Position numbers and translations under genes: made by a program. This document shows, piece after piece, positions 10,080 to 24,494 of a stretch of DNA of 38,464 bases; position 1 is the stretch's first letter; each line of letters begins with the position of its first letter. The notes under the pieces are model-generated. The model was not told the DNA's origin, did not search any database, and saw nothing but the letters and a program-made list of their open reading frames with translations. Source of the stretch: Actinomycetota bacterium (GTDB taxonomy: Bacteria; Actinomycetota; Actinomycetes; Mycobacteriales; HKI-0501); the NCBI GenBank assembly GCA_030840805.1, contig JAVEDU010000045.1:1-38464 (forward strand), in the 5' to 3' direction.

Positions 10080-10097
10080 CGTCGTGCGGGACGCTAC

Positions 10098-10117: not shown

Positions 10118-10180
10118 TAGGGTGGAAACAGAAACGTCATCTCCTTCTTCGCAGAGCCGGGGCACGAAAGGGACGAAGCC

Positions 10181-10783: not shown

Positions 10784-10789
10784 GACACG

Positions 10790-10818: not shown

Positions 10819-10827
10819 GGCGCCTCC

Positions 10828-13119
10828 CTACTGCGGGAGCGGTGCGTCCGAGGCGAACCGTCGCAGCACGTTCTCGGTGATCCGCGAGACGTTGTTGTCG
10901 TACTCGTGGTGCGACAGGCTGCCGCACCACGCGATCGAGCCGGTGGAGAAGACGCCTCCGTCGTTGGGCGTCGTGAAGTACACGAGGTCCGCGCGTACGT
11001 TCGGCTGCTCGTCACCGCCGTGCGCGGGCATCGTCGTCCCGAAGTTCTCCCGCACCTCGAGCATCACGTTGGTGTGCCCCTCCGAGGACGCCAGCAGGTA
11101 CGCGTGCGCGGGCGAGCCCAGCCCCGGTTCGTACCAGTCCAGCTCGAGCCCCGCGGCCCCGTCCCCGCAGAGCCCGAAGTTGCCGATGAGCTCGTCGTCC
11201 CCGACTCCCTCGAAGACCCAGGAACCGCCGGGGGCGAAGCTGTCCGGCTTGCGGCGGTAGTAACTCGACGTGTCCTGGCCCTGCGCGATGAAGCCGACGC
11301 CGACGATCTTCTGCGGCGCCCGCCCCCGGTTCCGCCAGAGGCCGCCCATCTCGCCGGTGAAGCCCAGGTAGTACTCCCCCGGCGCGGCGGTCCACATCTG
11401 CGTTCCGCCGTGCCGCCGGATCTCGATCATGTTGGGGTTCTCGGGGTGGTACCCGGTGACCCAGTAGAAGCCGTTGCCGCCCATGTACATGAAGCGCCCG
11501 CCGTCGGCGAGGTACGCCTCGATCGCGTCGAGCATCGCCCCGGTCGTGTACTCGGGGTGGGACCCGGTCACCACGGCCTTGTAGCGGGACAACAGCTCGA
11601 CGCCCTCGTCGTGCAGGTCCCGGTCGGTGATGACGTCGACCTCGAAGCCCTTCTCGGCGAACCAGTCGACCAGGTGCAGGTCCGCGTTGAACTGCCAGAC
11701 GTTGCCGAAGGCGTGCCGGTACTTCGGGCGGACGGTCAGGAGCGGCCGCTGCCACGACGAGTAGCAGACCCCGGTGCCGTCGGTGTGGTGGTCGTAGAGG
11801 GAGTTCCCGAGCTCGCGGTGGATGTGCTTGTGCAGGTCCTGCGGGCCGAGCACGACGGTCCGCCCGATCGCGAGCTGGATCAGCTCGGCATCCACGCCCA
11901 TGTGGTCGTTCGCGTAGGCGAGATAGCTGTTGGTCGGAGCCAGGAAGGCGATGCGCGCGGTCGCCGTCCCCTTCGGCGGCACGACGTAGAAGGGCACGTA
12001 GTCCTCGTGCTCCCCCGAACGGAGGCGCGCCGCGTACACCCCGCTGCGCAGCCCGGCGGGGACGGTCAGCGTGAAGTCGACCTCCCAGCGCGCATCGTCG
12101 AGGTCGTCGTCGTGGAAGTGGATCGCGCCGTACTGGTCGGGGGCGTGCGTGTAGACGTGCTCCGCGCCCGTCCAGGTGGACCCGGTCACCGCCCGGACCG
12201 GGGCGTTCACCGTCACGCCGTGCAGCCCGTGGCCGGAGCTGTCGGTGACCGCGGTGAACGGACGGACCCCGTCGGGGGTGATCTGGTCCGCGAAGTCCCA
12301 CGCGCCGAGGACGTCGGCCGCCTCCCGCACCGGTGCCCGGAGCTGGTCGCGATCCAGCACCCGGCCGGACAGCCGGGGCCGCTCCAGCTTGCCGTTGTAG
12401 TGACCGTCCACGATGGCCCGGTCACCCTCTTGGCGGCTCGTCCAGCCCGCCATGACCAGCGGCGCGGACGTCCGGCCCGGGACGACGCCGGCCCGGTGCT
12501 CGGTCGTCGTCACCCGGCCCGCGAACGTGTCCTGCCGCGAGATCGGCGCGTTCGCCGCGTGGACCACGGCCTCCTGGTGCAGGCGCACGGTGCCCGTGCC
12601 GGCGTCGAACGACGCGGCCACGAGGTACCAGCAGCGCTCGACCAGCGGCTCGCCGGAGCTGACCAGCTCGACGCCGCCGCTGCCGTCGCCGAGCTGGAGC
12701 GCGAGGCAGCCCGCCTCGTCGAGGATGAGGCCGTAGCCGGCCTGCTCCGCCTCGGACCACTTCGTGACGATCCCCTGTGGACCCTTCGCCGGGGTGGTCG
12801 GCCAGACCAGCGCCTGGACGGTGAAGCTGCCGGTCGGCGTCAGCTCCGGCCGGTCACCGACGATCGCGTACGACCCGGGGTAGGTCTGCTGCGCGCGTCC
12901 GGCGTACGTCCCGTTGACCGCGGTGTCGACGACCTCTTCCTTGAAGCCGGGCCCGCGCAGGTCGAGGTCGCCGTGGACCAGCTTGACGATGTCGGCCCGG
13001 TAGGACCCGAGCTCCTCCGCGCAACTGACGTAGAAGTCGAGGGTCTCACCGGGTCGGGCGTTGGGACGGTCGCAGTACCCGAGGATCCGCATGGGCCCGC
13101 TCACCAGGTTGTTCTGCAT
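10828..13119 (-). CDS. dmfA2: N,N-dimethylformamidase large (catalytic) subunit
   Basis: The family hydrolyses N,N-dimethylformamide to dimethylamine and formate at a mononuclear iron. The 763-residue length matches known large subunits (about 762). Residues about 95-250 form a LamG/concanavalin-like insert (GSFTVQALVWPTTP onward); the C-terminal half from about 385 is the catalytic DMFA2 domain. In the Paracoccus enzyme, as I recall it, iron is held by Tyr399, Tyr440 and Glu521. Equivalents here are Tyr399 in NSYLAY, Tyr442 in NSLYDHH and Glu523 in GSHPEY, with His521 next to it and Glu659 (LELDW) further on. The site therefore looks intact. ATG at 13119 has AAGGAG nine bases upstream. The small-subunit gene lies 14 bases upstream. 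The true substrate may differ from dimethylformamide, given the sugar-type neighbours. Confidence 0.93.
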   Translation of the reverse strand: MQNNLVSGPMRILGYCDRPNARPGETLDFYVSCAEELGSYRADIVKLVHGDLDLRGPGFKEEVVDTAVNGTYAGRAQQTYPGSYAIVGDRPELTPTGSFTVQALVWPTTPAKGPQGIVTKWSEAEQAGYGLILDEAGCLALQLGDGSGGVELVSSGEPLVERCWYLVAASFDAGTGTVRLHQEAVVHAANAPISRQDTFAGRVTTTEHRAGVVPGRTSAPLVMAGWTSRQEGDRAIVDGHYNGKLERPRLSGRVLDRDQLRAPVREAADVLGAWDFADQITPDGVRPFTAVTDSSGHGLHGVTVNAPVRAVTGSTWTGAEHVYTHAPDQYGAIHFHDDDLDDARWEVDFTLTVPAGLRSGVYAARLRSGEHEDYVPFYVVPPKGTATARIAFLAPTNSYLAYANDHMGVDAELIQLAIGRTVVLGPQDLHKHIHRELGNSLYDHHTDGTGVCYSSWQRPLLTVRPKYRHAFGNVWQFNADLHLVDWFAEKGFEVDVITDRDLHDEGVELLSRYKAVVTGSHPEYTTGAMLDAIEAYLADGGRFMYMGGNGFYWVTGYHPENPNMIEIRRHGGTQMWTAAPGEYYLGFTGEMGGLWRNRGRAPQKIVGVGFIAQGQDTSSYYRRKPDSFAPGGSWVFEGVGDDELIGNFGLCGDGAAGLELDWYEPGLGSPAHAYLLASSEGHTNVMLEVRENFGTTMPAHGGDEQPNVRADLVYFTTPNDGGVFSTGSIAWCGSLSHHEYDNNVSRITENVLRRFASDAPLPQ

Positions 13120-13133
13120 GCTGTGCTGCTCCT

Positions 13134-13526
13134 TCAGTTCCCGGTCTCGGCCACGATGCGCGCGATCCCGGGGTCGCCGAGGTCGCGCAGTCGCGCGAGG
13201 AAGATCGCGTGCTGCGCCTCCGCCTGGGAGGTGAACCGCTGGTCGGTGACGGTCAACGGCGCGGCCTTCCCGCCCGGGTGCAGCGCGAGGTACCACTCCT
13301 GGTACGGCTTCGTCTCCACGAGGACGTACCGCGGCTTGCCCGGAACGGGGTTCCGGCGCAGGTACCGCAGGAGGATCTCCAGCTCGGGGCTGTGCCCGGC
13401 CCCGAACGGGTTCTCCCGGTGCTCCGCGATCGTCTCGGGCGTGATGGTCGGCCGGACCTGCTGGGTGAAGATGAGCCGGTCGACCTCCCGGCCCGCGTGC
13501 GTCACCTTCTCCATCGCCTCGCTCAC
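13134..13526 (-). CDS. dmfA1: N,N-dimethylformamidase small subunit
   Basis: A 130-residue partner of the large subunit; known small subunits are about 132 residues. It is recognised by its position just before dmfA2, its size, and typical sequence such as RYVLVETKPYQEWYLALHP, LTVTDQRFTSQAEAQ and HAIFLARLRDLG. It is needed for the alpha/beta assembly and has no catalytic residues of its own in the known enzyme. GTG at 13526 has GGAGG seven bases upstream and overlaps the livM TGA as GTGA, so translation is coupled to the transporter. This coupling is a strong hint that the importer brings in the amidase substrate. Confidence 0.9.
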   Translation of the reverse strand: MSEAMEKVTHAGREVDRLIFTQQVRPTITPETIAEHRENPFGAGHSPELEILLRYLRRNPVPGKPRYVLVETKPYQEWYLALHPGGKAAPLTVTDQRFTSQAEAQHAIFLARLRDLGDPGIARIVAETGN

Positions 13527-14578
13527 CGGGCTACCTCCGCTTCCTCGTCGTCGTCCTCGTCCTCGTCGTCCGGCAGGAACCGGTCGGCGGCCCGTTTCAG
13601 GAAGCGCCCGAGCGGCGGCGCGATGCCCTCCGGCGCGGCGATGACCACCACGGCGAGCAGGGCGCCCAGCACCAGGGCATGCCAGCCGGCGGAGATGTCC
13701 TTGAGGATGAAGCCGTCCAGGAAGACCAGCAGCACCGCGCCGACGATCGGGCCCCAGAACGTCCCCCAGCCACCGAGGACGATCATCATGATCAGGTTCG
13801 TCAGCAGCGTGAAGCTCAGCGACGCGGGCGTCGTGGACTGCTGGTAGTGCGCCATGAACGCACCCGCGACACCGGTGAAGAACGCGCTGTACGCGAACAG
13901 CAGCAGCCGGAACCGGAACGGGTCGATGCCGCGGCTCACCGCGTACACCTCGGAGTCCCGCAGCGCCGTGAACGCGGTGCCGACGGGCGAGTACATGATC
14001 CGCCACACCGCGTACGTCGTCAGGACGAACAGCGCGAGGCCGAGGTAGTACGTCGACAGCAACGGGTTCGACGTGAACCCGAAGCCGGGCGACTTCAGCC
14101 CGTAGAAGCCACCGAAGATCTCCGGTCCGGTGCCCAGGTAGTTCTGCAGCAGCATCACGAACCCGAGCGTCAGCAGGGCCACGTACACGCCCCGCAGTCG
14201 CAGGATCGCGAGCCCGATCACCAGCGCGATCGCCGCGGCGGCGAGCCCGCCCACCCAGATCGCCAGGAACGGGCTGAGTCCCAGGTGGATGGCAATGAGG
14301 CTGCTCGCGTACCCGCCGACCGCGTACATCACGAGCTGGCCGAGCGAGAAGATGCCGGAGACCCCCAGGACCAGGTTCCAGCACTGCGCCACCATCGCGT
14401 AGACCAGCACGGTCACCAGCAGCGTGACGACGAACCGCTGCCCGGTCTGCACCAGCAGCCACGGGACCAGGGTCGCCGCGGCGAGCGCCAGCCCGACCGC
14501 GCCCACGTTCAGGCGGCGCCACGGCCCCGCGCCCGGGGTCACCTCGCGTTCGCGCACGCCCTGCGTCACGGCGCTCAC
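13523..14578 (-). CDS. livM: LivM-type ABC transporter permease (system 2)
   Basis: A 351-residue membrane permease. Family motifs include AQCWNLVLGVSGIFSLGQL followed by MYAVGGYASSL, and later AFTALRDSEVYAVSRGIDPF before the final helices. About eight to ten hydrophobic segments are seen. The C-terminus ends in an unusually acidic cytoplasmic tail (DDEDEDDDEEAEVAR), which is not part of the family core. GTG at 14578 overlaps the livH stop as GTGA and is chosen over an upstream in-frame start that would overlap livH further. Downstream it overlaps dmfA1 by four bases. It forms the channel with LivH. Confidence 0.92.
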   Translation of the reverse strand: MSAVTQGVREREVTPGAGPWRRLNVGAVGLALAAATLVPWLLVQTGQRFVVTLLVTVLVYAMVAQCWNLVLGVSGIFSLGQLVMYAVGGYASSLIAIHLGLSPFLAIWVGGLAAAAIALVIGLAILRLRGVYVALLTLGFVMLLQNYLGTGPEIFGGFYGLKSPGFGFTSNPLLSTYYLGLALFVLTTYAVWRIMYSPVGTAFTALRDSEVYAVSRGIDPFRFRLLLFAYSAFFTGVAGAFMAHYQQSTTPASLSFTLLTNLIMMIVLGGWGTFWGPIVGAVLLVFLDGFILKDISAGWHALVLGALLAVVVIAAPEGIAPPLGRFLKRAADRFLPDDEDEDDDEEAEVAR

Positions 14579-15453
14579 AGCCGCTGCAGTTCCGGCGTGC
14601 CGAACAGGCCCTGCGGGCGCACCAGCAGCACCGCGATGATGAAGAGGAACAGCGCCGGCAGTGACCACGCCACTCCCGCGAATGCCTGCACGAATGCCTC
14701 CAGGAGACCGATGACGTAGGCGGCGACGATCGTGCCCTTGACGCTGCCCAGACCGCCGAAGATCGTGACGATGAGGGCCTTCAGCATCGGGACGAAGCCG
14801 GCTGTCGGGGACAGGGCGAGGATCGAGGTGAGCATCGCGCCGGCCAGGCCGGACAGCGACGCGCTCACGCCCATGACGATGAGGAACACGAGCGCGACGG
14901 GGATTCCGACGAGCCGTGAGGCGTCCATCTGCTGGGAGACCGCGCGGATCGCGAGACCGAACCGCGAGGTCTTGAGGAACAGGTGCAGCAGCACCAGGAG
15001 CACGACCGCGACCGCACAGACGAGGATCGCCTGGTAGCGGAACACGACGTCGTTGACGACGAAGGCTCCCTCGATCGCCGCCGGCATCGCGCGCACCTCG
15101 GGGCCGTACGCGAGCAGCAACGCGCTCTCCAGCACCAGCGAGACGGCGACCGTCGCGATCCAGGAGGCGTTGTCCCAGCCCGGTTTGCCGAGCATCGGCA
15201 GGACCACCACCGCGTACAGCACGAGGCCGAGCGCCGCGGAGGCGAGCATCGCCCCCGCGAACGCGAACACCGCGCTGAAGCCCAGCGACACCATCAGCGT
15301 GTACGCGACATACCCGCCGGCGACGTAGATCGCGCCGTGGGCGAGGTTGAGCAGGTTCAGGGAGCCCCAGATCAGGGTCAGGCCCACGGCCATGAGGCCG
15401 TAGACCGAACCGAAGACCAGGCCGCCCCAGACGGCTTGCAGAAGTTGTCCCAT
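14575..15453 (-). CDS. livH: LivH-type ABC transporter permease (system 2)
   Basis: A 292-residue permease of full family length, with the canonical start GLVFGSVYGLMAVGLTLIWG and NLLNLAHGAIYVAGGYVAY, and the loop motif RAVSQQMDASRLVGIPV. Later it has the GSVKGTIVAAYVIGL and LLVRPQGLFGTPELQRL ending typical of LivH. Unlike the system 1 gene it has a clear ATG at 15453. It is 12 bases downstream of livF and overlaps livM by four bases. Confidence 0.94.
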   Translation of the reverse strand: MGQLLQAVWGGLVFGSVYGLMAVGLTLIWGSLNLLNLAHGAIYVAGGYVAYTLMVSLGFSAVFAFAGAMLASAALGLVLYAVVVLPMLGKPGWDNASWIATVAVSLVLESALLLAYGPEVRAMPAAIEGAFVVNDVVFRYQAILVCAVAVVLLVLLHLFLKTSRFGLAIRAVSQQMDASRLVGIPVALVFLIVMGVSASLSGLAGAMLTSILALSPTAGFVPMLKALIVTIFGGLGSVKGTIVAAYVIGLLEAFVQAFAGVAWSLPALFLFIIAVLLVRPQGLFGTPELQRL

Positions 15454-15465
15454 GTTTCCCTCACT

Positions 15466-16173
15466 TCACCCGAGGTAGGTCGACAGCAGGGCCTCGTCGC
15501 CGAGGAGCTCGGCGGCGTTGCCCTCGCGACGGAACTCGCCGGTCTCCATCAGGTAGACCCGGTCGGCCATGCCCTCGACATGGTTGGCGCTCTCGTCGAC
15601 CAGCAGGAGCGAGAGCCCGTCCCGCGTGATGGCCTTGATCGCGGCGTACACGTCCTCGATGACCTGCGGAGCCAGCCCCAGCGACGGCTCGTCCACGATC
15701 AGCAGCCGGACGTCCCCCATCAGCCCCCGCCCGATCGCGAGCATGCGGCGCTCTCCCCCGGAGAGGCTGCGCGCGAGCTGGCCGCCGCGCTCCTGCAACC
15801 TCGGGAACAGGGCGTACACCCGGTCGAGGCCGTCCTTGCGGACCTTCCAGGCACCGCGCCGGTACGCCCCCATGAGGAGGTTGTCCCGGACCGTCATCAT
15901 CGGGAACACGAGGTCGCCCTGTGGAATGTGGACGATCCCCGCCGCGACGATCTCCTCGGGCTTGCGGCCCACCAGCTCCTCGCCCTCGAACTGCACGCTG
16001 CCGCCGGAGGGCCGTACGAGCCCGGAGATCACCCGCAGGAGGGTGGTCTTCCCATGTCCGTTGGGGCCGAGCAGCACGACGCTCTCGCCGGCGTCGACGT
16101 GCATCGAGACACCGTGGAGGACCTGGGCCGCGCCGTACCCGGCGCTGACGTCAGAGACCCGCAGCATCGGCAT
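15466..16173 (-). CDS. livF: LivF-type ABC transporter ATP-binding protein (system 2)
   Basis: A 235-residue ATPase. Walker A is LGPNGHGKTT near residue 36, IPQGDLVFPMMTVRDNL is the Q-loop region, the signature is LSGGERR, and Walker B is LLIVDEPSLGLAP. The H-loop position reads LLLVDESANHVEG, so the usual Glu-Gln/His region is slightly altered (DES rather than EQN), but a later His follows. ATG at 16173 is used; a second ATG at 16167 would also fit. It overlaps the end of livG by 23 bases. It pairs with LivG of the same operon. Confidence 0.91.
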   Translation of the reverse strand: MPMLRVSDVSAGYGAAQVLHGVSMHVDAGESVVLLGPNGHGKTTLLRVISGLVRPSGGSVQFEGEELVGRKPEEIVAAGIVHIPQGDLVFPMMTVRDNLLMGAYRRGAWKVRKDGLDRVYALFPRLQERGGQLARSLSGGERRMLAIGRGLMGDVRLLIVDEPSLGLAPQVIEDVYAAIKAITRDGLSLLLVDESANHVEGMADRVYLMETGEFRREGNAAELLGDEALLSTYLG

Positions 16174-16918
16174 CCTCCTTTGTGGACCAGCTCTTGCCGA
16201 GGTAGACCTCCGCGACCCGCGGATCGCTCAGGACCTCGGCCGGACGACCCTCGACGATCGGCTGTCCGTGGTGCAGGACGAGCATCCGGTCGGCCAGCGC
16301 CTGCACGGCCTTCATGATGTGTTCGATCATCACGACGGTGACGCCGGTGCCGTTGATCTTGCGCACGAGCTCGATGAGCTCGTCCCGCTCCTCCCGGTTG
16401 AGCCCCGCGAACGGCTCGTCGAGCAGCAGGACGCTCGCCCCGGTGGCGAGCGCGCTCGCGAACATCAGCCGCTTCAGGTCGATCACGGGCAGCTGCTTCG
16501 CGAGGAGCTCCTGCTTGGAGTACAGGTCGCAGACCTCCAGCGCCTCCAGCGCCGCGTCGATCGACTCCTGCGGGTACCGCAGCCGGAACCGGGTGCCCCG
16601 CTCGCGGCCGAAGGTGCTGCCCACGAGGACGTTCGTGAACACCGACTGGGAGGAGAACGACACCGACGTCTGGAACAGCCGCGCCAGGCCCAGCTGGCAG
16701 ATGCGGTTCGGGGCCATCCGCTGGATCTCGACATCCTCCAGCGTGATCGTTCCCGACGTCGCCGGGGCGAGGCCCGAGATCGTGTCGAACAGTGTCGTCT
16801 TGCCGGCGCCGTTGGGCCCGACGATCGCGAACACCTCGCCGCGCTCGACGGAGAACGTGACCCCGTCGAGCGCGGCGAGACCGCCGTAGGTCTTCGTGAC
16901 CTCGTTGCAGCGCAGCAC
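16151..16918 (-). CDS. livG: LivG-type ABC transporter ATP-binding protein (system 2)
   Basis: A 255-residue ATPase. Walker A is VGPNGAGKTTLFD, Walker B is VLLLDEPFAGLN, and the H-loop is VVMIEHIMKAV. The signature region is KQLPVIDLKRLMFASALAT, lacking an LSGGQ-like motif, as in the system 1 LivG. The loop LARLFQTSVSFSSQSVFTNV carries the Q-loop Gln. The C-terminus (PRVAEVYLGKSWS) is normal. GTG at 16918 starts only two bases after the stop of the binding-protein gene, and the longer open frame upstream is a shadow of that gene. Confidence 0.91.
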   Translation of the reverse strand: MLRCNEVTKTYGGLAALDGVTFSVERGEVFAIVGPNGAGKTTLFDTISGLAPATSGTITLEDVEIQRMAPNRICQLGLARLFQTSVSFSSQSVFTNVLVGSTFGRERGTRFRLRYPQESIDAALEALEVCDLYSKQELLAKQLPVIDLKRLMFASALATGASVLLLDEPFAGLNREERDELIELVRKINGTGVTVVMIEHIMKAVQALADRMLVLHHGQPIVEGRPAEVLSDPRVAEVYLGKSWSTKEDADAAGL

Positions 16919-16920
16919 GG

Positions 16921-18264
16921 TCAGGCCTTCTTCATCCACGGCGGCAGGACGAACTTCCCGTTCGTGTACGGCTCCGGGTAGATGACCGTGTGACCGTCGT
17001 CCTTCACCTGGGCGATGATCTGCGGCTGACCGAGCGACGCGTCGGGCTGCTCCACCGGGTAGGCCGCGTTGATGTGGTCCTTCAGGTACAGGACGCCCGT
17101 CACGCCGCGGACCGGCGTCTGCTCGACGACCTTCGCGACGCGCCGGTAGTCCTTCGGGTCCCCGGACAGGGCCGCGCAGTGCGCCCACACCTTGACCTCG
17201 TCGTACACGCCGCCCGCGTAGGACCAGCCGGGCTCGGTCTTGTAGAGCTTGCGGTACCGGTCGCGGAAGCTGTTGCCGATGTCGTCGACCTGGAGCCCCA
17301 GCACGGTCGACCAGATGATGCCGTTTCCGGCCGCCCCCGCGAGCTTCTTGAACTCCGGGTCGGACGGGGCGTAGTGCTGGTAGATCAGGGCCGGGATCGG
17401 CGCGGCGGCCCACTGCTTGGCGAGCGCCGCGTTGTCCGGCGGGAAGAAGTCGGACGTGAAGAAGACGCTGGGGGCGTCGCGGCGGACCTTCGACAGGACG
17501 GGTCCCCAGTCGGTGACCTGCCCGGTGGGGATGGTGTCGTGCGAGACGATCTCCCAGCCGAGCTCGGTGGCCTTCTGCCGGAACCGCTTGGCGATCTCCG
17601 TCCCGCCGGGGTCGGCGCCGGCCGCGATCGCGACGGTCTTGCCGTTGGACGGCGTCCACTCACCGCTCTCGGCGAGACGGTCGAAGAACAGGCCGACGCC
17701 CTGGCCGTACGCGTTCTCCGCCGGGTCGCACTGGAAGATGCTCCAGTACTTCTCCGGGTCCTTCTTGTAGATCGTGCGCCAGTCCTCGCGCGTGGTGGCG
17801 TGGAAGTAGAGGATCCCCGCCTCGGCCACCACGTCGAGGTCCGGGCCCATCGCGTTCACCGCGGGAGCGATGATCACGTCGGGCTTCTCGGTGTCGACGA
17901 TCCGGCTGAAGACCTGGCGGACGTTGGTGGGGTCGTTCCAGTCGCCCTGGTCGACCTCGACGTACTTCAGCTTCCGGCCGAGGACGCCACCGTTGGCGTT
18001 GATCTCGTCGATCGCCATGAGGGCGCCGTTCTTCGACTCGCGGCCCCACGACGCGCCGGTGCCGGTCATCGGCGCCGCCAGGACGACCCGGAGGTCCGCG
18101 CCGCCGCCGCCCGCGGCCGCGCCACCGCCACCCGCGGCCGTGCCGCGACCGGCGCCGAACCCGCCCGCCGCGCCCAGTACGAGCCCACCCACACCGGTCG
18201 CCGTCGCCGCCCGGACGAAGTCCCGCCGCGTCGTCTTCCGCGGCTTCTGTCCCTCATCTGCCAT
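16921..18264 (-). CDS. ABC transporter substrate-binding protein with Tat signal (system 2)
   Basis: A 447-residue periplasmic-binding-fold protein of the amide/urea/branched-chain group (PF13433/PF13458-like). The N-terminus has a twin-arginine signal, TTRRDFVRAA near residues 11-20, then a hydrophobic Gly/Ala segment and a Gly/Ala-rich linker to about residue 57; no lipobox Cys follows. The mature part reads LRVVLAAPMTGTGASWGRE and has long conserved pieces such as DVIIAPAVNAMGPDLDVVAE. Tat export suggests folding or cofactor loading before export, unlike the lipoprotein of system 1. ATG at 18264 has AAGGA about eight bases upstream. It lies in the operon with dmfA1A2, so its ligand may be the amidase substrate. 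Confidence 0.9.
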   Translation of the reverse strand: MADEGQKPRKTTRRDFVRAATATGVGGLVLGAAGGFGAGRGTAAGGGGAAAGGGGADLRVVLAAPMTGTGASWGRESKNGALMAIDEINANGGVLGRKLKYVEVDQGDWNDPTNVRQVFSRIVDTEKPDVIIAPAVNAMGPDLDVVAEAGILYFHATTREDWRTIYKKDPEKYWSIFQCDPAENAYGQGVGLFFDRLAESGEWTPSNGKTVAIAAGADPGGTEIAKRFRQKATELGWEIVSHDTIPTGQVTDWGPVLSKVRRDAPSVFFTSDFFPPDNAALAKQWAAAPIPALIYQHYAPSDPEFKKLAGAAGNGIIWSTVLGLQVDDIGNSFRDRYRKLYKTEPGWSYAGGVYDEVKVWAHCAALSGDPKDYRRVAKVVEQTPVRGVTGVLYLKDHINAAYPVEQPDASLGQPQIIAQVKDDGHTVIYPEPYTNGKFVLPPWMKKA

Positions 18265-18311
18265 TGCTGGAGTCCTTCCCACTCGTGTACCGATCGGATC
18301 CGGCGTGCTGT

Positions 18312-19610
18312 TCATGCGCGGCCGGTGAGTTCGCGAACCCGGGCCCGCGTGTCCTCGTACGGCTGCCCGTCACGGTCGACGAGGTTGTTCGCGCGGTCGA
18401 AGAGGCCCACGACCCGGGGCTCGGTCTCGACGTCGGAGACGACGGCGACGAACGCGCGGGTGGTGAAGGCCTGGGGCCGGAAGGCGTACACCGCGGTGTC
18501 GCCCACCCTGATGTCCACCGGCTCGGCGGGCACGAGCGTGCCGCCGTAGTAGTCGGTCGCGTTGGCCGTCCGGCCGAAGAACGAGCCCACGTCGACCGGC
18601 ACCCTCGTGTCGAGGATCGCGCCGGGGTCACGGCCCACGAACGCGTGCGGTTCCCACGGGCGGGTGCGGAACCGGCTGTCGTCTCCGACCGCCGCCGGCG
18701 TGTCGCAGGCGTAGAACCCGCCGCCGACCACGTACGCCCGGTTCTCGAAGAGGTGCGAGACCTCGCTGACGTAGACCATCGCGGGCCGCTCGGGGGCGGT
18801 GTCGTCGTACAGGTGCGTGGGCGTCGTGCCGGTCAGGCCGTGGCCCGGCTCGGCCACGGTGCCGCCGAGGCGGGCCACCATCTCGAAGCCGCGGGTGGAC
18901 CCCGCTCCCGGGGTGTTGACCTGGTCGATCCGGAAGCCGAGCTCGGTGAGCCGGTCGCGGGCCCGGAGCACGGTCTGGAAGTTCGGCGCCGGCTCCAGCT
19001 GACGCGTCGCGGGGTCGAACAGCGTGCCGGGGAACGTCACCACGCCGGCGATCCGGACGCCCGGCAGCTGCGCGATCTCCTTCGCCGCCGCGTCGAGGTC
19101 GGCCAGCCAGAAGCCGCCCTCCTCGTTCGGGTAGATGAGGTCGCCGTCCGCCCGGACCCGGAGCATGACGCCCTGCACCATGCCGAGCGCCACCGCGGCG
19201 TCGGAGACCTGGCGTGCCTTGTCGACGGAGAAGATCGTCATGACCTCGGGGCGGGTCGACAGCACCGCCGGCAGGTCGTGCCGCGGGATCTGGACCAGGT
19301 GCCCCACGTGGCCCACCGGCAGGTCGAAGCGCCGCAGCGCCTGGACGCACTGCACGTCGACCGCGACCGTGCTGTCCAGCCCCTGCGCGAGCGCGGCATG
19401 GGTGATCAGCGGGTTGCGGTTGTAGTGCTTGGTCATCAGGTACGTGCGGATGCCGACCCGCTTGGCCTCCGCGGCCATCACGCGGGCGTTCGCGCGCACG
19501 GTGTCGAGGTCGAGGACGTAGGTGTTCGCCGGGATGGCGCCGGACTGCTGCAGCGCGGCCGCGGCGCGGATCAGCGCCGGGTTCCGGCGGGCGGTCACAT
19601 CGAGGAACAC
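18312..19610 (-). CDS. YhfX-family PLP-dependent protein (alanine-racemase-like fold)
   Basis: A 432-residue homologue of E. coli YhfX, a member of the alanine racemase N-terminal barrel family whose reaction is not established. It starts like YhfX (RRNPALIRAAAAL) and the PLP lysine is Lys61 in YLMTKHYNRNP. Other shared blocks are GHVGHLVQIPRHD, VFTPGTL-like VVTFPGTLFDP, AEPGHGLTGTTP, and YVSEVSHLFENRAYVVGGG. The family may act on an amino acid or amino sugar as a racemase or aldolase. It lies 48 bases upstream of the binding-protein gene and 34 bases downstream of the SIS gene, same strand, so it is probably one operon with the dimethylformamidase genes. Confidence 0.85.
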   Translation of the reverse strand: MFLDVTARRNPALIRAAAALQQSGAIPANTYVLDLDTVRANARVMAAEAKRVGIRTYLMTKHYNRNPLITHAALAQGLDSTVAVDVQCVQALRRFDLPVGHVGHLVQIPRHDLPAVLSTRPEVMTIFSVDKARQVSDAAVALGMVQGVMLRVRADGDLIYPNEEGGFWLADLDAAAKEIAQLPGVRIAGVVTFPGTLFDPATRQLEPAPNFQTVLRARDRLTELGFRIDQVNTPGAGSTRGFEMVARLGGTVAEPGHGLTGTTPTHLYDDTAPERPAMVYVSEVSHLFENRAYVVGGGFYACDTPAAVGDDSRFRTRPWEPHAFVGRDPGAILDTRVPVDVGSFFGRTANATDYYGGTLVPAEPVDIRVGDTAVYAFRPQAFTTRAFVAVVSDVETEPRVVGLFDRANNLVDRDGQPYEDTRARVRELTGRA

Positions 19611-19644
19611 GGGGCGCCTCCTTCGGTCTGGTCGGGCTCGGGAC

Positions 19645-20547
19645 TCACGCGAACGCCCGCAGGGCGGACCCGGAGAGCACGACGGAGCGGGACAGGTTGT
19701 GCGGGCGGTCCGGGTCGAGGCCGCGGGCCTCGGCGGCCGCGACGGCCGTGCGCTGGGCGAGCACGAGGCACGCCAGCGGGTCCAGCGGCGAGGAGACCAC
19801 CGTCGCGCCGGTCGCCCGGACCTCGGCCGCGAGGGCGGGGTCGAGCGGCCCCATGGACCACACCGCGCTCGTCGGCGAGGTCACGCTGATCGGGCCGTGG
19901 CGGTACTCCATCGCGGGGTACGCCTCGGTCCAGGCCTGCGCGGCCTCGCGCAGCTTGAGCGCGGCCTCGTGCGCGAGGCCGACGGTCCAGCCGCGCCCCA
20001 CGAAGGTCCACTGGGTGATCGCGGCGGGATCGACCGGCAGCGCGGCGGACACCGCCCGCTCGGCGTCCACGATGGACTGCTCGACACCGCCGTCACCGGC
20101 GTGAGCGCGCAGCAGCGTCAGCGCCGTGGTGGCGAACCGCGTCTGGACGACGGACTGCTCGTCCGCGAAGGCAAGCTCGACGACGGCGTCCGCGCGCTCG
20201 CCGACGGGGCCGGCGGGCACCGCGGTGAGGGCGACGGAGCGCGACGCCGGCGCGTCCGCGAGGACGTGGGCGACCTCGGTCGTCGTGCCGGACCGCGAGA
20301 TCGCGACGAGCACGTCGTAGTCGCGTCCCCGCGGAAGTTCCGAGGCGGCGAAGGCGTCGGTCAGGCCGAGACCGGCCTCCTCGCGCAGCGCGGCCCAGGC
20401 CTGGGCCATGTACAGGGACGTGCCGCAGCCGACCACGCACACGCGCTCACCGGGCCGCGGCAGGAGGCCGGCCACCTCGCGGGCGAGGTCGGAAGCCCGG
20501 CGCCACATCTCGGGCTGACTCAGGATTTCTGCTGTCGTGTTGCTCAT
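19645..20547 (-). CDS. SIS-domain sugar isomerase/deaminase/deglycase
   Basis: A 300-residue protein with two SIS domains, like the isomerase half of GlmS, AgaS (amino-sugar-6-P ketose/aldose isomerase) and FrlB (fructosamine-6-P deglycase). Phosphosugar-binding motifs are VVGCGTSLYMAQAW near residue 38 and AISRSGTTTEVAHVL near 81; the second domain has FVGRGWTVGLAHEAALKLRE and AYPAMEYRHGPISV. It probably releases ammonia or an amine from an aminated sugar phosphate. It lacks the glutaminase half, so it is not glucosamine synthase. ATG at 20547 heads the minus-strand operon. Divergent pfkB lies 271 bases away. Which sugar is used cannot be told from sequence. Confidence 0.87.
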   Translation of the reverse strand: MSNTTAEILSQPEMWRRASDLAREVAGLLPRPGERVCVVGCGTSLYMAQAWAALREEAGLGLTDAFAASELPRGRDYDVLVAISRSGTTTEVAHVLADAPASRSVALTAVPAGPVGERADAVVELAFADEQSVVQTRFATTALTLLRAHAGDGGVEQSIVDAERAVSAALPVDPAAITQWTFVGRGWTVGLAHEAALKLREAAQAWTEAYPAMEYRHGPISVTSPTSAVWSMGPLDPALAAEVRATGATVVSSPLDPLACLVLAQRTAVAAAEARGLDPDRPHNLSRSVVLSGSALRAFA

Positions 20548-20818
20548 TGGCGGATGTCTACCGGCGTATTCGAGCATGGTCAAGCAATTCTTACGTTCGT
20601 TTTTGCTCGATCTGGTGTTTCCCCTGGTCAGCGGCATCACGACGATCCGGCTCGGTCGGGCCGTCCGGTCCGATGGGGCGTCTTTCGGACGGCTTGGTGC
20701 ACGATCCTGCTCGTTCTGCCCGCCTGTCCGCATTCTTGTGCATGATCGAGCACTGTGTTTTGATCGCGCTGACCGCGAACAGACGCCGCTGCCACCAGCG
20801 GCACGGGGAGGCCGACCT
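20548..20818. promoter_or_regulatory. Divergent promoter region with repeated GATCGAGCA-type sites
   Basis: This 271-bp gap is AT-rich compared with its neighbours and serves the SIS operon and the pfkB operon. GTGCACGATC (20697-20706) and GTGCATGATC (20738-20747) are near-identical direct repeats 41 bases apart. TGCTCGATC (20604-20612) is the exact inverted copy of GATCGAGCA (20744-20752). Such spaced repeats suit a DeoR-type repressor that loops DNA, and a DeoR gene is two genes away. The sites were found by eye and promoter elements were not assigned. Confidence 0.55.
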
Positions 20819-21781
20819 GTGAGCACCCGGGAGTTCGACCTGATCGTCATCGGGGACGCGAACCCGGACCTGATCCTGAGCGGCGGTGAGCTGGAGCCCG
20901 CGTTCGGGCAGCGTGAACGGCTCGTGGGGTCGTCCGCGCTGGTCCTCGGTGGTTCGGGGGCGATCACGGCGTGCGGCGCCGCGCGCCTGGGCCTGCGGAC
21001 CGCGATGGTGGCGTGCGTGGGCGACGACGTCCTGGGCGACTTCATGCTGGCCGAGCTCGCGGCGGCCGGCGTGGACGTCCAGGGCGTGCGGGTGCTGCCC
21101 GGGATACCGACCGGGATCAGCGTGGCGCTCGCGCGGCCCGACGATCGCGCGGTGCTCACCGCCCGCGGGGCGATGGGGGCGTTCGACCCCGCCCACCTCC
21201 CGGCAGAGCTGCTGACGCGCACGCGGCACGTCCACATCGCGTCACCGTTCCTCCAGCCCGGCCTCCGCGACGGGCTCGCCCTGCTGGTGGCCCGGGCGCA
21301 CGAGGCCGGTACGACCGTCTCGCTCGACACCGGCTGGGACCCGGAGGATCGCTGGACACAGGTGCTGGCCGCCCTCGCCACCGTCGATGTGCTGCTGCCG
21401 AATGCCCAGGAGGTCCTCCGGTTGGCGTCCGCAGTGGACGGTCGTCTCCACCCGGACGATCTCGACGCCGCCGACGCCGCGACGGCGCTCGCCGCCGGCG
21501 GACCACTGGTCGTCGCGAAGCTCGGCGAGGACGGAGCGCTCGCCGTACGCGACGGAGCAGTGATCAGGGTCGCCGCTCCCCGTGTCGACCCGGTCGACAC
21601 GGTCGGCGCCGGGGACTCCTTCGACGCGGGGTTCCTGACCGGCTGGCTGGAGGGTCTCGACCTGGCGGATGCCCTGACGCTGGGCTGCGCGTGTGGCGCG
21701 CTGTCGACCCGGCGGCCCGGCGGCACCGCGGGTCAGCCGACCCGCGCGGAAGCCGACGCGATGGCGAGTGTCGTCCGGTGA
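20819..21781 (+). CDS. PfkB-family carbohydrate kinase
   Basis: A 320-residue ribokinase-type kinase that phosphorylates a sugar or related hydroxyl compound. It starts DLIVIGDANPDLIL, has the glycine switch GGSGAITACGAARLG near residue 41, and ends with the catalytic and anion-hole motif DTVGAGDSFDAGFLTGWL, Asp being the base. GTG at 20819 has GGGGAGG seven bases upstream. It is the first gene of the plus-strand operon and divergent from the SIS gene. PfkB plus SIS pairs occur in fructoselysine (FrlD/FrlB) and amino-sugar pathways, which supports a role on an aminated sugar here; this is inference. Confidence 0.9.
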   Translation: MSTREFDLIVIGDANPDLILSGGELEPAFGQRERLVGSSALVLGGSGAITACGAARLGLRTAMVACVGDDVLGDFMLAELAAAGVDVQGVRVLPGIPTGISVALARPDDRAVLTARGAMGAFDPAHLPAELLTRTRHVHIASPFLQPGLRDGLALLVARAHEAGTTVSLDTGWDPEDRWTQVLAALATVDVLLPNAQEVLRLASAVDGRLHPDDLDAADAATALAAGGPLVVAKLGEDGALAVRDGAVIRVAAPRVDPVDTVGAGDSFDAGFLTGWLEGLDLADALTLGCACGALSTRRPGGTAGQPTRAEADAMASVVR

Positions 21782-21840
21782 CCGTCGACCACCGGCCCGG
21801 CGGCCCCGGCGACGGCCTCCCACCGCATAGCATCCGACCC

Positions 21841-22599
21841 GTGCGCAAGGCGGACCGCTTCGGGCGGATCCTGGAGCTGCTCTCGCAGGGGGGCAGCGTC
21901 GCCGTGAGCGACCTCTCCGCGGAGCTGGGCGTCAGCGAGGCCACGATCCGCCGGGATCTCCGCGCGCTCGACGAGCAACGCCTGCTGGAGCGCGCGCACG
22001 GCGGCGCCGTCTCGCAGGGCACCGCCTACGAACTGCCGGTGCGGTACCGGGCCGGCCATGCCCGGGTCGAGAAGCAGCGGATCGCCCGGGCCGCAGTCGA
22101 GCGGGTGGGTGACGGTGACGTCGTCGCGCTCACCGGCGGGACGACGACGACCGAGGTCGGCCGCCAGCTGGCGCGCCTCTCGGGCCTCTCCGTGGTCACC
22201 AATGCCCTGAACATCGCCGCGGAGCTGGCGGTGCGCCCGAACCTGAAGCTCATCGTCACCGGCGGAGTGGCGCGCGGTGCCTCCTACGAGCTCGTCGGCC
22301 CGCTCGCCGAGTCCACTCTGCACAGCATCAACATCGACGTGGCGTTCGTCGGGGTGGACGGCATCGACAGGGACGCCGGGCTGACCACCCAGAACGAGAC
22401 CGAGGCGGCGACCAACCGCGTCCTCATCGAGCGCAGCCGCCGCGTCATCGTCGTCGCCGACGCCTCGAAGCTCGGCCGCGTCGTCTTCGCGTCCATCTGC
22501 CCCGTGTCCGCGGTGACCGAGTTGGTGACCCAGGCGGATGCCGATCCCGTCCAGGTCGACAAGCTCCGCGCGGCGGGGCTCACCGTGACCCTCGTCTGA
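21841..22599 (+). CDS. DeoR-family transcriptional regulator
   Basis: A 252-residue repressor of sugar catabolism. The N-terminal helix-turn-helix is seen in RILELLSQGGSVAVSDLSAE and LGVSEATIRRDLRALDEQ (about residues 8-45), and the C-terminal sugar-phosphate-sensing domain in VALTGGTTTTEVGRQLA, VTNALNIAAEL, FVGVDGIDRDAGLTT and VVADASKLGRV. GTG at 21841 gives the normal family N-terminus. An in-frame GTG at 21778 overlaps the pfkB stop as GTGA and would add 21 residues, so coupled initiation there is possible. It probably responds to a phosphorylated sugar made by the neighbouring kinases and controls the divergent promoters at 20548-20818. Confidence 0.92.
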   Translation: MRKADRFGRILELLSQGGSVAVSDLSAELGVSEATIRRDLRALDEQRLLERAHGGAVSQGTAYELPVRYRAGHARVEKQRIARAAVERVGDGDVVALTGGTTTTEVGRQLARLSGLSVVTNALNIAAELAVRPNLKLIVTGGVARGASYELVGPLAESTLHSINIDVAFVGVDGIDRDAGLTTQNETEAATNRVLIERSRRVIVVADASKLGRVVFASICPVSAVTELVTQADADPVQVDKLRAAGLTVTLV

Positions 22600-22617
22600 C
22601 CTCCGCGACACCCGCCC

Positions 22618-22638
22618 GCCCGGTCGGCACGGCCGGGC
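22618..22638 (+). terminator. Hairpin after the DeoR gene
   Basis: Nine-base arms (22618-22626, 22630-22638), one pair being G-T, close on a three-base loop 18 bases after the DeoR stop codon. The stem is GC-only and has no T tract. It could attenuate read-through into the kinase/aldolase pair rather than stop it fully. Confidence 0.5.
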
Positions 22639-22686
22639 GCGGTATCCCCTCGGCCCATGACTGCTCCGGCAGGTAGGAGGCGCACG

Positions 22687-22728
22687 ATGCGTTCGACCGC
22701 GACCACGCACTGTGGACGGCGCTCGTGA
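22687..22728 (+). CDS. 13-codon leader peptide coupled to the sugar kinase
   Basis: A short frame encodes MRSTATTHCGRRS. It has the best ribosome site in the area, AGGAGG at 22675-22680, six bases before its ATG. Its TGA stop (22726-22728) overlaps the GTG start (22725-22727) of the kinase, which has no good site of its own. Ribosomes ending the leader could thus restart on the kinase. The peptide has two Thr pairs, a Cys and two Arg but no long run of one residue, so classical amino-acid attenuation is not evident. Real translation is likely from the site strength, but untested. Confidence 0.5.
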   Translation: MRSTATTHCGRRS

Positions 22729-23639
22729 TCCTCTGCGTCACGCTCAACGCGGCGCTCGACGTCACGTACAGCGTGGACGAGGTCCGGTGGCACGCCGGTA
22801 ACCGGGTGGCCGCGGTGGCGCAGCGGGCGGGCGGCAAGGGCGTCAACGTCGCCCGGGTGCTGCACACGCTCGGCGAGGACGTACTCGTCACCGGACTCGT
22901 CGGCGGCGACACCGGAGCGCAGATCCGGGCGGACGTACAGGCGGCGGGGCTCGCCGAGGCGTTCCAGGACGTCACCGGGGAGTCGCGCCGGACGGTGGCC
23001 GTCGTGGACGCCGCCGCGGGGGACGCCACCGGGTTCTGGGAACCCGGTCCGCCCGTCGCCCCGGACGACTGGGCGCGCTTCCTCGACCGGTACGACGGGC
23101 TGCTGACCGGGGCCCGGGCAGTCGTCCTCACCGGCAGCCTCCCACCGGGGCTGTCCCCCGAGGTCTACGCCGACCTGGTGCACCGCGCCCGCAAGGCGGG
23201 CGTCCCGGTCGTACTGGATGCCGATGCGGAAGCGCTGGCGGTGGGCGTCTCGGCCGAACCGGACATCGTGAAGCCCAATGTGGACGAGCTTCGCCGCGCC
23301 ACCGGGTTCACCGATCGCCTCCCGGGTGCCGAGGCGCTGCGCGCACAGGGAGCCCGCGCCGTCGTCGTGTCGGCAGGCCCGGACGGGCTTATCGCGTCCA
23401 CACCGGACGGTCGCTGGGCCGCCCGGCCGCAGGACCGCGTGTCCGGTAACCCCACCGGTGCGGGCGACGCGAGTGTCGCGGCGCTCGTCCGGGGGCTCGT
23501 GGCCGACACGAGCTGGCCGGAGCGCCTCGCCGACGCCGTCGCCCTTTCCGCCTCGGCGGTGCTGCGACCGCTCGCCGGCGACGTCGACCTCGCCGCCTAC
23601 CGCCGATTCCGCGACACCGTGTCAATCGAGGAGATCTAG
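22725..23639 (+). CDS. 1-phosphofructokinase/tagatose-6-phosphate-kinase-type enzyme
   Basis: A 304-residue member of the FruK/LacC branch of the PfkB family, phosphorylating a ketose phosphate to the bisphosphate. The start ILCVTLNAALDVTYSVDE and the RAGGKGVNVARVLHTLG motif (about residues 34-50) are typical, as are VLTGSLPPGLSP, the KPNVDEL block and the ending GNPTGAGDASVAALVRG with the catalytic Asp. GTG at 22725 lies inside the leader-peptide stop codon. The aldolase gene begins right after its stop. Together they would make and cleave a ketose bisphosphate such as tagatose 1,6-bisphosphate or fructose 1,6-bisphosphate. Confidence 0.88.
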   Translation: MILCVTLNAALDVTYSVDEVRWHAGNRVAAVAQRAGGKGVNVARVLHTLGEDVLVTGLVGGDTGAQIRADVQAAGLAEAFQDVTGESRRTVAVVDAAAGDATGFWEPGPPVAPDDWARFLDRYDGLLTGARAVVLTGSLPPGLSPEVYADLVHRARKAGVPVVLDADAEALAVGVSAEPDIVKPNVDELRRATGFTDRLPGAEALRAQGARAVVVSAGPDGLIASTPDGRWAARPQDRVSGNPTGAGDASVAALVRGLVADTSWPERLADAVALSASAVLRPLAGDVDLAAYRRFRDTVSIEEI

Positions 23640-24494
23640 ATGCCGCTGGTCACCACCGGAGAGATCGTCAAGGGGGCGCAGGCGGCGGGCACCGGGGTCG
23701 GCGCCTTCAACGTCATCACGCTCGAGCACGCCGAGGCGATCGTCGCGGCGGCCGAACGGGTGGGCCTGCCCGTGATCCTCCAGGTGAGCGAGAACGCGGT
23801 GAAGTTCCACCTCGGCCGGCTCCGGCCCATCGCGATGGCCGCGGCGGAGGTGGCCGCCGCGGCGGGCGTCCCGGTGTCCCTGCACCTCGACCATGTCGAG
23901 GACGACGACCTGCTGCGCCAGGCCGTCGACGCGGGTTTCAGCTCGGCCATGTACGACGCGTCGAAGCTGTCCTATCGGGACAACGTTGCCGCCACCCGGG
24001 CGGCGGCCCGGTGGGCCCACGATCACGGCCTGTGGCTCGAGGCCGAGCTCGGCGAGGTCGGCGGTAAGGACGGTGCCCATGCGCCCGGGGTACGCACCGA
24101 TCCCGTCGAGGCCGCGGCCTATGTGGAGGCGACCGGGGTCGACGCGCTGGCGGTCGCGGTGGGCAGCTCGCACGCCATGACGACGAGGACGGCGAGCCTG
24201 GACCTGGACCTCATCTCCCGGCTCCGGGACGCCGTGCCCGTGCCGCTCGTGCTGCACGGCTCCTCGGGGGTGCCCGATCCCGAGCTGCGGGCCGGCGTGC
24301 GGCACGGAATGGTCAAGGTGAACATCGGGACCGCCCTCAACGTCGCGTTCAGCGCCGCGGTGCGGGAGGTACTCGGCGGCCCGCAGCCCCCCGTCGACCC
24401 GCGGAAGTACCTCCGGCCGGCCCGCGCGGCGATGACCGAGAGCGTGGCCCACCTCCTCACGGTGCTGACCGGAGAACACCCGGCTCACGCGTGA
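23640..24494 (+). CDS. Class II ketose-bisphosphate aldolase (GatY/KbaY-like)
   Basis: A 284-residue zinc aldolase that splits a ketose 1,6-bisphosphate into dihydroxyacetone phosphate and glyceraldehyde 3-phosphate. It begins like the family (VGAFNVITLEHAEAIVAAAE). The active-site Asp-His pair is LHLDHVED (Asp84, His85); further zinc and substrate ligands are expected at His178 in VGSSHAM and His206 in VLHGSSGVPD, with GMVKVNIGTALN near the end. The length is typical of GatY/KbaY and shorter than FbaA. ATG at 23640 follows the kinase stop directly, with GAGGAG about six bases upstream. It closes the sugar branch of the locus. Whether fructose or tagatose bisphosphate is the substrate cannot be told. 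Confidence 0.9.
   Translation: MPLVTTGEIVKGAQAAGTGVGAFNVITLEHAEAIVAAAERVGLPVILQVSENAVKFHLGRLRPIAMAAAEVAAAAGVPVSLHLDHVEDDDLLRQAVDAGFSSAMYDASKLSYRDNVAATRAAARWAHDHGLWLEAELGEVGGKDGAHAPGVRTDPVEAAAYVEATGVDALAVAVGSSHAMTTRTASLDLDLISRLRDAVPVPLVLHGSSGVPDPELRAGVRHGMVKVNIGTALNVAFSAAVREVLGGPQPPVDPRKYLRPARAAMTESVAHLLTVLTGEHPAHA

Follow-up and report, generated by a model that had tools for sequence, protein, structure and literature searches.

The locus under study lies at positions 10828-24494 of JAVEDU010000045.1, a 38,464-nt stretch referred to as a whole as the window. It encodes a two-subunit amidase of the dimethylformamidase family (DmfA1A2) in one operon with an ATP-binding cassette (ABC) importer of the Liv type, a YhfX-family enzyme and a SIS isomerase, and it carries a divergent set of sugar kinase, repressor and aldolase genes on the other strand. 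All 13 named genes were found in frame and in the order given by the initial annotation, through Pfam and solved-structure matches. Because the folds were assigned by sequence matches to solved structures, they are regarded as settled. The features of the locus are as follows.

10828-13119, minus strand: DmfA2, the large (iron) subunit of a dimethylformamidase-family amidase, 763 amino acids (PF20254, 6lvb_A)
13134-13526, minus strand: DmfA1, the small subunit (match to 6lvb_B), overlapping the LivM gene by 4 nt
13523-14578, minus strand: LivM-type permease, 351 amino acids (PF02653, BPD_transp_2)
14575-15453, minus strand: LivH-type permease (PF02653, BPD_transp_2; LivH tree)
15466-16173, minus strand: LivF-type ATPase (PF00005, ABC_tran; best NCBIfam match LivF, below cut-off)
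16151-16924, minus strand: LivG-type ATPase with an uncertain start codon (PF00005 and BCA_ABC_TP_C)
16921-18315, minus strand: substrate-binding protein (SBP) of the Peripla_BP_6 type (Pfam; 3h5l, E 5.6e-60)
18312-19610, minus strand: YhfX-family pyridoxal phosphate (PLP) enzyme with an alanine-racemase fold (PF21279, YhfX-like_C, and PF01168, Ala_racemase_N; 4kbx, E 2e-81)
19645-20547, minus strand: SIS sugar-phosphate isomerase/deaminase, the first minus-strand gene (PF01380 on a longer frame containing the gene; GlmS-like and glucosamine-6-P deaminase solved relatives)
20548-20818: shared divergent promoter region with four TGCTYGA half-sites (20570, 20580, 20604 and 20746); presumed DeoR operator at 20570-20586
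20819-21781, plus strand: PfkB (ribokinase-family) sugar kinase (Pfam; ribokinase-like solved structures)
21778-22599, plus strand: DeoR-family repressor (DeoRC and HTH_DeoR)
22725-23639, plus strand: LacC/FruK-type sugar-phosphate kinase (PfkB domain; TIGR03168 hexose kinase, above cut-off)
23640-24494, plus strand: GatY/KbaY-type class II ketose-bisphosphate aldolase (PF01116, E 5.5e-86; 1gvf AgaY, E 1.1e-48; TIGR00167, above cut-off)

The minus strand is transcribed in the order SIS-YhfX-SBP-LivG-LivF-LivH-LivM-DmfA1-DmfA2, with junctions of +34 (SIS-YhfX), -4 (YhfX-SBP), -4 (SBP-LivG), -23 (LivG-LivF), +12 (LivF-LivH), -4 (LivH-LivM), -4 (LivM-DmfA1) and +14 nt (DmfA1-DmfA2). No gap exceeds 34 nt. 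Overlaps of 4 nt occur at four junctions, the one between SBP and LivG depending on the uncertain LivG start. Divergent from SIS after 271 nt, the plus strand carries PfkB-DeoR-LacC-GatY, with junctions of -4, +125 and 0 nt. The initial annotation had described consecutive minus-strand genes facing a divergent sugar set, with gaps of at most 48 bases and many 4-base overlaps, and Pfam matches, structure matches and coordinates all agree with this description. In the codon-position guanine-cytosine (GC) analysis, 7 of the 13 genes passed a strict filter and 12 passed a looser one; PfkB, masked by the overlong SIS frame, was missed by the latter. From SIS to DmfA2, the minus strand showed no terminator-like site, and the scan for sigma-70-type promoters stayed at chance level. 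A promoter belonging to the Dmf genes themselves, which had been named in advance as an argument against a link with the sugar genes, is represented only by a weak promoter-like match inside the SBP gene (minus strand, 17897-17870), one such match being found against 0.4 expected by chance.

Dimethylformamidases have been studied as pollutant-degrading enzymes. The DmfA2 protein of the window matches the large subunit of the Paracoccus enzyme over its full length (6lvb_A, E 1.9e-209). It has a weaker match to the N-acetyl-(R)-beta-phenylalanine acylase 8huy (E 9.1e-138), and its DMFA2_C domain (PF20254), scored on the longer frame, reaches 324.5 bits against a cut-off of 27 (E 1.5e-96). DmfA1, aligned here with 11 relatives, has no Pfam match; the solved small subunit 6lvb_B matches it at E 1.1e-7, and it is encoded directly upstream of DmfA2 across a 14-nt gap, as in the dimethylformamidase family. 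NCBIfam holds no family for DmfA1, DmfA2 or YhfX. In the sections of PMC7686228 that deal with the active site of the Paracoccus enzyme, Y399, Y440 and E521 are the iron ligands, mutants at H519, N547 and E657 are inactive, and F693 forms the constriction of the pocket. The window enzyme shares with it, as described there, the two subunits, the domain and all iron-ligand and catalytic residues, with Y402, Y442, H521, E523, N549 and E659 corresponding to Y399, Y440, H519, E521, N547 and E657. In the alignment of 53 DmfA2 proteins, including that of the window, the three iron ligands and H519 are invariant, and N547 and E657 are each kept in 52 (one D and one X, respectively). Of the features of the family, the domain, the site of two tyrosines and one glutamate with H519, N547 and E657, and the small subunit are present. 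The column of the F693 gate is variable, with F in 13 of the 53 proteins and T695 in the window. Since the iron and catalytic residues are kept and this column is free, DmfA1A2 should, as judged from its residues, be active with an open choice of substrate.

The closest known systems of this enzyme family differ from the window in their surroundings. The plasmid-borne operon of Paracoccus aminophilus is described in PMC4543880; the DmfA2 of plasmid pAMI2 is 46% identical to the window protein, and the 9 kb of pAMI2 examined contain LuxR-DmfA1-DmfA2 with no annotated importer. The window, in contrast to the Paracoccus system, has a Liv importer, SIS and YhfX in the operon and a threonine at the F693 gate. 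AceAB from Pigmentiphaga is likewise a two-subunit relative that cleaves a C-N bond; it acts on acetamiprid and not on N,N-dimethylformamide (DMF), and the parts of PMC11573777 that describe it state no link to Liv or sugar genes. The family name is therefore no guide to the substrate. A C1 solvent such as DMF is disfavoured as the natural substrate, because no methylamine or formate genes were recognised in the 30 window frames that were scanned and the phenylalanine of the F693 gate is missing. The most similar DmfA2 (59% identity) comes from Brasilonema (locus L008; L-numbers denote compared loci), where the neighbours are an AMP-binding enzyme, a DeoC/LacD aldolase, DHQS and sensor kinases; these are unrelated and thus give no context clue for the window.

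The importer set of the Liv/HAAT type is complete, comprising a Peripla_BP_6 SBP, two BPD_transp_2 permeases and two ATPases, with NCBIfam Liv models far below their cut-offs (57 of 477 bits for the SBP and 204 of 441 bits for LivF). Relatives of DmfA2 were found in 23 of the 394 genomes of the class sample (E <= 1e-40) and in 5 of the 396 genomes of the phylum sample (E <= 1e-80), the source genome being counted in both; at these limits, neither sample contained another genome of the same order with DmfA2. The 55 DmfA2 loci compared include near-copies (L193/L208/L209, L195/L197 and L052/L053/L055) and several that end at contig ends, and absence of a gene from them means absence from the stretch available. 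The six weakest loci of the class sample (L044-L049) were short stretches only, L044 being later read as L206. A Liv set stands directly beside DmfA2 in 7 of the 55 (L020, L054, L056, L193, L206, L208 and L209); in addition, a single LivM-like stretch lies directly downstream of DmfA2 in L199, and a Liv set lies about 5 kb away in L011. Beside other DmfA genes, Rbs-type and Dpp-type importers, another solute-binding ABC type, AmiS/UreI and MFS proteins were observed, and some DmfA loci show no importer. DmfA-family amidases are therefore often accompanied by an importer of changing type, and at the genomic level this pairing is solid.

The window order SBP-G-F-H-M-A1-A2 is repeated in three genomes of one other family of the same class, f38 (L054, L056 and L206, where DmfA2 runs into the contig end), on Rhizobiales plasmids of Agrobacterium and Rhizobium (L193, L208 and L209, including A. 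tumefaciens pAt and Rhizobium pMK-2) and, by annotation, on Aminobacter pMDW2, in all cases with a related importer type. The view of the initial annotation that DmfA1A2 has its own importer is thus supported. In L054, L056, L206, L193, L208 and L209, LivM and DmfA1 form one open frame (6 of the 10 frames spanning DmfA1); DmfA1 stands alone in its frame in the window, L008, L057 and L183. This LivM::DmfA1 fusion is the most novel point of the analysis. Its C-terminal part matches 6lvb_B (E 5e-12), and a plasmid search with the A. tumefaciens fusion returned 26 records at E <= 1e-30, all covered over at least 80% of the query, although both the query and the limit favour full-fusion matches. 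Besides one from Aminobacter (59.5%) and one from Ensifer (56.5%), they comprise 24 near-copies found in Agrobacterium and Rhizobium, and few independent lineages are therefore represented; two loci from the search with the fusion as query (L254 and L255) stand outside the 55. In four fusions (L193, L208, L054 and L056), the linker that follows the last membrane segment is K/R-rich, L206 being left out of this reading as the anchor word was not found there. According to the positive-inside rule, K/R-rich segments lie on the cytoplasmic side, and the linker is therefore predicted to be cytoplasmic. With DmfA1 fused or tied to the permease, the entrance to the active site would lie at the cytoplasmic opening of the importer. 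Narrow word searches of the open-access literature found no paper naming Liv-Dmf operons with a LivM::DmfA1 fusion, no report joining dimethylformamidase with LivM, and no ABC importer permease linked or fused to a hydrolase or amidase subunit. In contrast to the window, none of the six fused loci had a SIS, YhfX or PfkB match in the stretches examined.

Several loci with fused or misnamed genes show additional features. L254 (Aminobacter sp. MDW-2 pMDW2, 5274-18444) contains a Liv importer, a LivM::DmfA1-type fusion, two DmfA2 genes, a propionyl-CoA synthetase and a haloacid dehalogenase, neighbours that hint at a possible role of propionate-type acid amides as substrate. Downstream of the fused operon, L054 (11618-14381) and L056 (7983-9086) carry a histone-deacetylase-like gene of the acetylpolyamine amidohydrolase type, and L054 also an Amidohydro_3 gene, which points to further amide hydrolysis. 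In L182 (Halalkalicoccus jeotgali plasmid 2, 8413-8955), a DmfA1-like gene beside DmfA2 is annotated as "inner-membrane translocator", a label probably carried over from LivM::DmfA1 fusions. The gene lists of FArhodopsin clusters in PMC10308929 give "inner membrane translocator" and N,N-dimethylformamidase together, and DmfA1 may be hidden there under the translocator name.

The promoter region between SIS and PfkB provides a local connection between the two strands. Frequent words in 17 intergenic regions beside SIS genes include TGCTCGAA and ATGCTTGA. The motif TGCTYGA occurs four times in the window region (shuffle mean 0.08, with none of 300 shuffles reaching four) and nine times in 16 further SIS-DeoR intergenic regions, for which 1000 shuffles gave a mean of 0.76 and a maximum of 5. 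A tandem form, TCGAGCA-N3-TCAAGCA, with copies 10 nt apart, is present in the window and in 4 of the 16 other regions, all from f22, another family of the class; the flanks also agree, with TTTCGAGCACAATCAAGCATTC in L141, L148 and L143 compared with ATTCGAGCATGGTCAAGCAATTC in the window. The five other regions with any TGCTYGA site all belong to one genus of f22. Located 22 nt upstream of the SIS start, the window tandem is the sole perfect match in the 4.46 Mb draft genome; allowing at most one mismatch, 9 places were found, versus 6 for a control pattern. The tandem box at 20570-20586 is presumably the site at which a repressor of this DeoR type binds to control transcription in both directions, and a regulatory tie of the amidase operon to the sugar set is plausible at the local level.

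SIS relatives were found in 113 of the 394 class genomes (E <= 1e-25), and 40 loci were chosen from these by hand for family spread; here and in the YhfX loci, genes were counted anywhere in the stretch available, not only where adjoining. The 40 loci contained GatY (31), DeoR (31), a ROK-family match, either kinase or regulator (29), LacC (22), a NagA-like deacetylase (13) and PfkB (5). SIS, LacC, GatY and DeoR are a common hexosamine-type gene set. In the same class, this set of SIS, ROK or PfkB, LacC, GatY, DeoR and in some cases NagA resembles the aga pathway for N-acetylgalactosamine, and the window shares with it SIS (34-63% identical, mostly at least 48%), GatY (53-66%), LacC and DeoR, often in one cluster, as well as the box in common with f22 loci. 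It differs in having PfkB instead of ROK, in the lack of NagA and in the position of SIS at the head of an amidase-importer operon. The specific models were not reached by SIS (AgaS, TIGR02815, 28 bits against a cut-off of 529), LacC (tagatose-6-P kinase, TIGR01231, 165 against 410), GatY (tagatose-bisphosphate aldolase, TIGR01858, 214 against 444) or DeoR (AgaR, NF040755, 194.8 against 260); the broader hexose kinase TIGR03168 and ketose-bisphosphate aldolase TIGR00167 were. Given these scores, the likeness to the aga pathway stands, and membership does not. The window set is of the PfkB kind, which is represented by five other clusters (L162, L164, L167, L176 and L177; GatY in three), with no ROK, NagA or DmfA detected in them.

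YhfX relatives occur in 20 of the 394 class genomes (E <= 1e-30), the source genome included, and the window protein has both family domains, YhfX-like_C and the alanine-racemase-type N domain. The 27 YhfX loci fall into two contexts. One is like the E. coli-type yhf cluster (YhfT, PTE, YhfS, YhfX), with YhfT in 14 and YhfS in 16 loci; the other contains sugar-type ABC importers, ROK regulators, M20 hydrolases (5) and SIS genes, and PTE is spread over both (20 of 27). The window shares the YhfX family member with the E. coli-type cluster and differs from it in that YhfT, PTE and YhfS are all absent from the Pfam matches of the operon. In 8 of the 27 loci the stretch also contains a SIS gene, about 8 kb from YhfX in two of these. 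The combination of YhfX, SIS and an importer in one cluster thus recurs in a minority of loci, and the window conforms to this pattern, its DmfA1A2 taking the place that M20 has in some other YhfX clusters. A second YhfX copy in the source genome (L090, contig C107, 3263-8169) stands in a compact operon of ROK regulator, YhfX, amino acid permease and SIS, and the same four gene types occur in a different order in Embleya (L186).

Taken together, these genes are best explained, with moderate confidence, by an import-coupled amide-hydrolysis operon inside a hexosamine/ketose-phosphate catabolic locus. In this view, a sugar regulon has taken in an importer-amidase unit; the parts themselves are known. 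The Liv-type importer (SBP at 16921-18315 with LivGFHM) would take up a small, probably polar amide, and the mononuclear-iron DmfA1A2 would hydrolyse it at the inner membrane face. Transcription would begin upstream of SIS, in the region common to PfkB-DeoR-LacC-GatY and presumably under DeoR, and for this reason amide uptake would be switched jointly with, and induced together with, the sugar pathway. In that pathway, PfkB would phosphorylate a hexose or hexosamine, SIS would isomerise or deaminate it, LacC would phosphorylate it again and GatY would split the product. We hypothesise that the amidase and the sugar genes may serve a common metabolic pathway, with a role for YhfX that we infer.

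Several observations weigh against this explanation. The whole combination of SIS-YhfX-Liv-Dmf with the sugar genes was present in no other genome sampled. YhfX was absent from all 55 DmfA2 loci, and SIS occurred in one (L021), weak, 27% identical and about 9 kb away; DmfA2 was in turn absent from the 27 YhfX loci, and both YhfX and DmfA2 from the 40 SIS loci. A conserved super-operon of SIS-YhfX-Liv-Dmf-PfkB-GatY was accordingly rejected, as it was not found via DmfA2, YhfX or SIS searches. The initial annotation had regarded missing linkage to the sugar genes as grounds for refutation, and its interpretation survives in part: the amidase has its own importer and is tied locally to the sugar pathway, with SIS heading the operon and the promoter region and box shared with PfkB-DeoR-LacC-GatY, but the linkage is not conserved in the loci sampled. 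As regards the box, the motif was picked after viewing these same sequences and is absent from all 11 intergenic regions outside f22. LivM and DmfA1 are separate proteins in the window, encoded by genes overlapping by 4 nt, and its LivM ends in an acidic tail, versus the K/R-rich linker of four fusions.

The kinship of the parts adds to these objections. In quick trees without a true root, the importers of the fused operons form one clade with full support for LivG, LivF, LivH and LivM, as do their SBPs except for that of Ensifer (L255). All five window importer components are nearer by identity to a Liv paralogue of the same genome (L241, contig C15, 4867-13068, order SBP-H-M-G-F, without DmfA) than to any Dmf-linked set, with 35-36% compared with 29-34% for the SBP, 37% compared with 30-34% for LivG, 51% with 38-44% for LivF, 39% with 32-35% for LivH and 38% with 26-32% for LivM; the LivG of an unrelated set (L244) is 39% identical to that of the window, and the window SBP is 21% identical to that of the neighbouring Liv operon. 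Window LivF and LivG pair with L241 (support 85 and 83), the SBP stands in an open fork with it, the LivM tree gives no resolved position, and only the LivH tree joins the window with the fused Dmf-linked clade (90, not starred). In the DmfA2 tree, which omits the partial proteins of L018, L022 and L023, the window protein groups with Brasilonema, Halalkalicoccus and Aminobacter pcAMD1 (starred, 97), outside the fused clade (100). DmfA2 and most importer parts of the window are thus placed apart from the fused operons, and a single ancestral Liv-Dmf unit was rejected, with LivH alone in its favour and the SBP, LivG, LivF, LivM and DmfA2 trees not supporting it. Since the window, L241 and the fused operons stand together against the other Liv sets tried in the SBP, LivG and LivF trees (91, 90 and 94), a wider importer subfamily holding all three is likely. 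As the fused importers form their own clade and the nearest relative of the window importer is a paralogue from the same genome, more than one origin of the pairing is probable. The simplest reading of the trees would be that Liv and DmfA1A2 were joined independently in the line of the window, in the fused clade and in Herbaspirillum (L020, order H-M-G-F-DmfA2). Repeated pairing points to a functional bond; the fused form is then a mere analogy for the window, whose Liv-Dmf unit is probably an independent assembly and whose DmfA1 may dock to LivM in a comparable way. L241 itself adjoins an acyl-CoA-dehydrogenase-like flavoprotein, a flavin reductase and a GTP cyclohydrolase II, and the cargo of its importer could hint at the substrate of the window importer.

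Among the alternatives, chance juxtaposition is possible, if doubtful: an amide-scavenging operon would have been inserted after SIS-YhfX and transcribed by read-through, with no metabolic link, supplying nitrogen or one-carbon units from a small amide. Dmf genes stand on many plasmids beside very different importers, the importer and DmfA2 of the window differ in their nearest kin, and the absence of DmfA2, at the limits used, from the other sampled genomes of the order is in line with an insertion. A further Liv importer is encoded together with a C-N hydrolase at 44-9523, so that the contig would be an amide-use region in any case. The 4-nt overlap across the YhfX-SBP junction, a GC content like that of the rest of the window and the shared promoter box all speak against such an insertion.

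A single pathway for an N-acylated or N-alkylated sugar amine seems unlikely. In this scheme, the Liv system would import the compound, DmfA1A2 would de-acylate it in place of NagA/AgaA, and PfkB, SIS deamination, LacC and GatY would follow. It would account for SIS at the head of the operon and for the lack of a deacetylase, as a NagA-like protein accompanies 13 of the 40 relatives of the sugar set and no NagA/AgaA was among the Pfam matches in 10828-24494 (the Amidohydro_1 protein at 3625-4863 belongs to another operon); the dimethylformamidase family also includes acylases (8huy), and in Agrobacterium vitis DmfA1A2 stands behind a sugar-type ABC importer with a LacI regulator. However, the five PfkB-type clusters, with neither NagA nor DmfA detected, lack no obvious step, and DmfA therefore need not fill a missing one, which weakens it as a NagA replacement. 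The near-absence of YhfX and SIS from DmfA2 loci counts against the scheme as well. Liv-type binding proteins are not known as sugar carriers, a further point against it.

We consider it similarly improbable that the operon serves as an acylase pathway for an N-acyl amino acid, perhaps D- or beta-, in which DmfA1A2 would free the amino acid, YhfX would convert it and SIS would serve the separate sugar set. The acylases 8huy and 8i5a are relatives, the Liv family carries amino acids, and YhfX stands elsewhere beside M20 hydrolases and substrate importers. DmfA1A2 is found with a dipeptide-type importer near a DSD1-family PLP enzyme in A. larrymoorei and near an aminotransferase in Variovorax. 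On the other side, no function for YhfX was found in the literature among the matches listed, and the SIS genes in YhfX loci point back to sugars. Finally, a transporter-enzyme machine, in which DmfA1 shapes the amidase entrance and docks or fuses to LivM so that a substrate is handed over to the iron active site without mixing with the cytosol, newly assembled in the window, wired to the hexosamine/ketose regulon and cleaving a sugar-derived amide, is very unlikely, since a close relationship of the window importer to those of the fused operons is not clear.

The neighbouring operon (44-9523, minus strand) is a separate unit encoding an SBP, Liv permeases and ATPases, an Amidohydro_1 hydrolase, a carbon-nitrogen hydrolase, a proline dehydrogenase and an aldehyde dehydrogenase, and from its gene content it looks like a system for import and breakdown of a proline-containing amide. 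On the other side of the locus, an ice-binding-like protein (31357-32421) adjoins a diguanylate cyclase with PAS, GAF and GGDEF domains (32629-35139).

The recurring importer-amidase pairing suggests that some natural substrates of dimethylformamidases are imported amides, which may be traced through their binding proteins. The window adds a version of this pairing whose regulation points to sugar-derived substrates. If the LivM::DmfA1 fusion means direct hand-off, the coupling of an ABC importer to catabolism could be tested on it.

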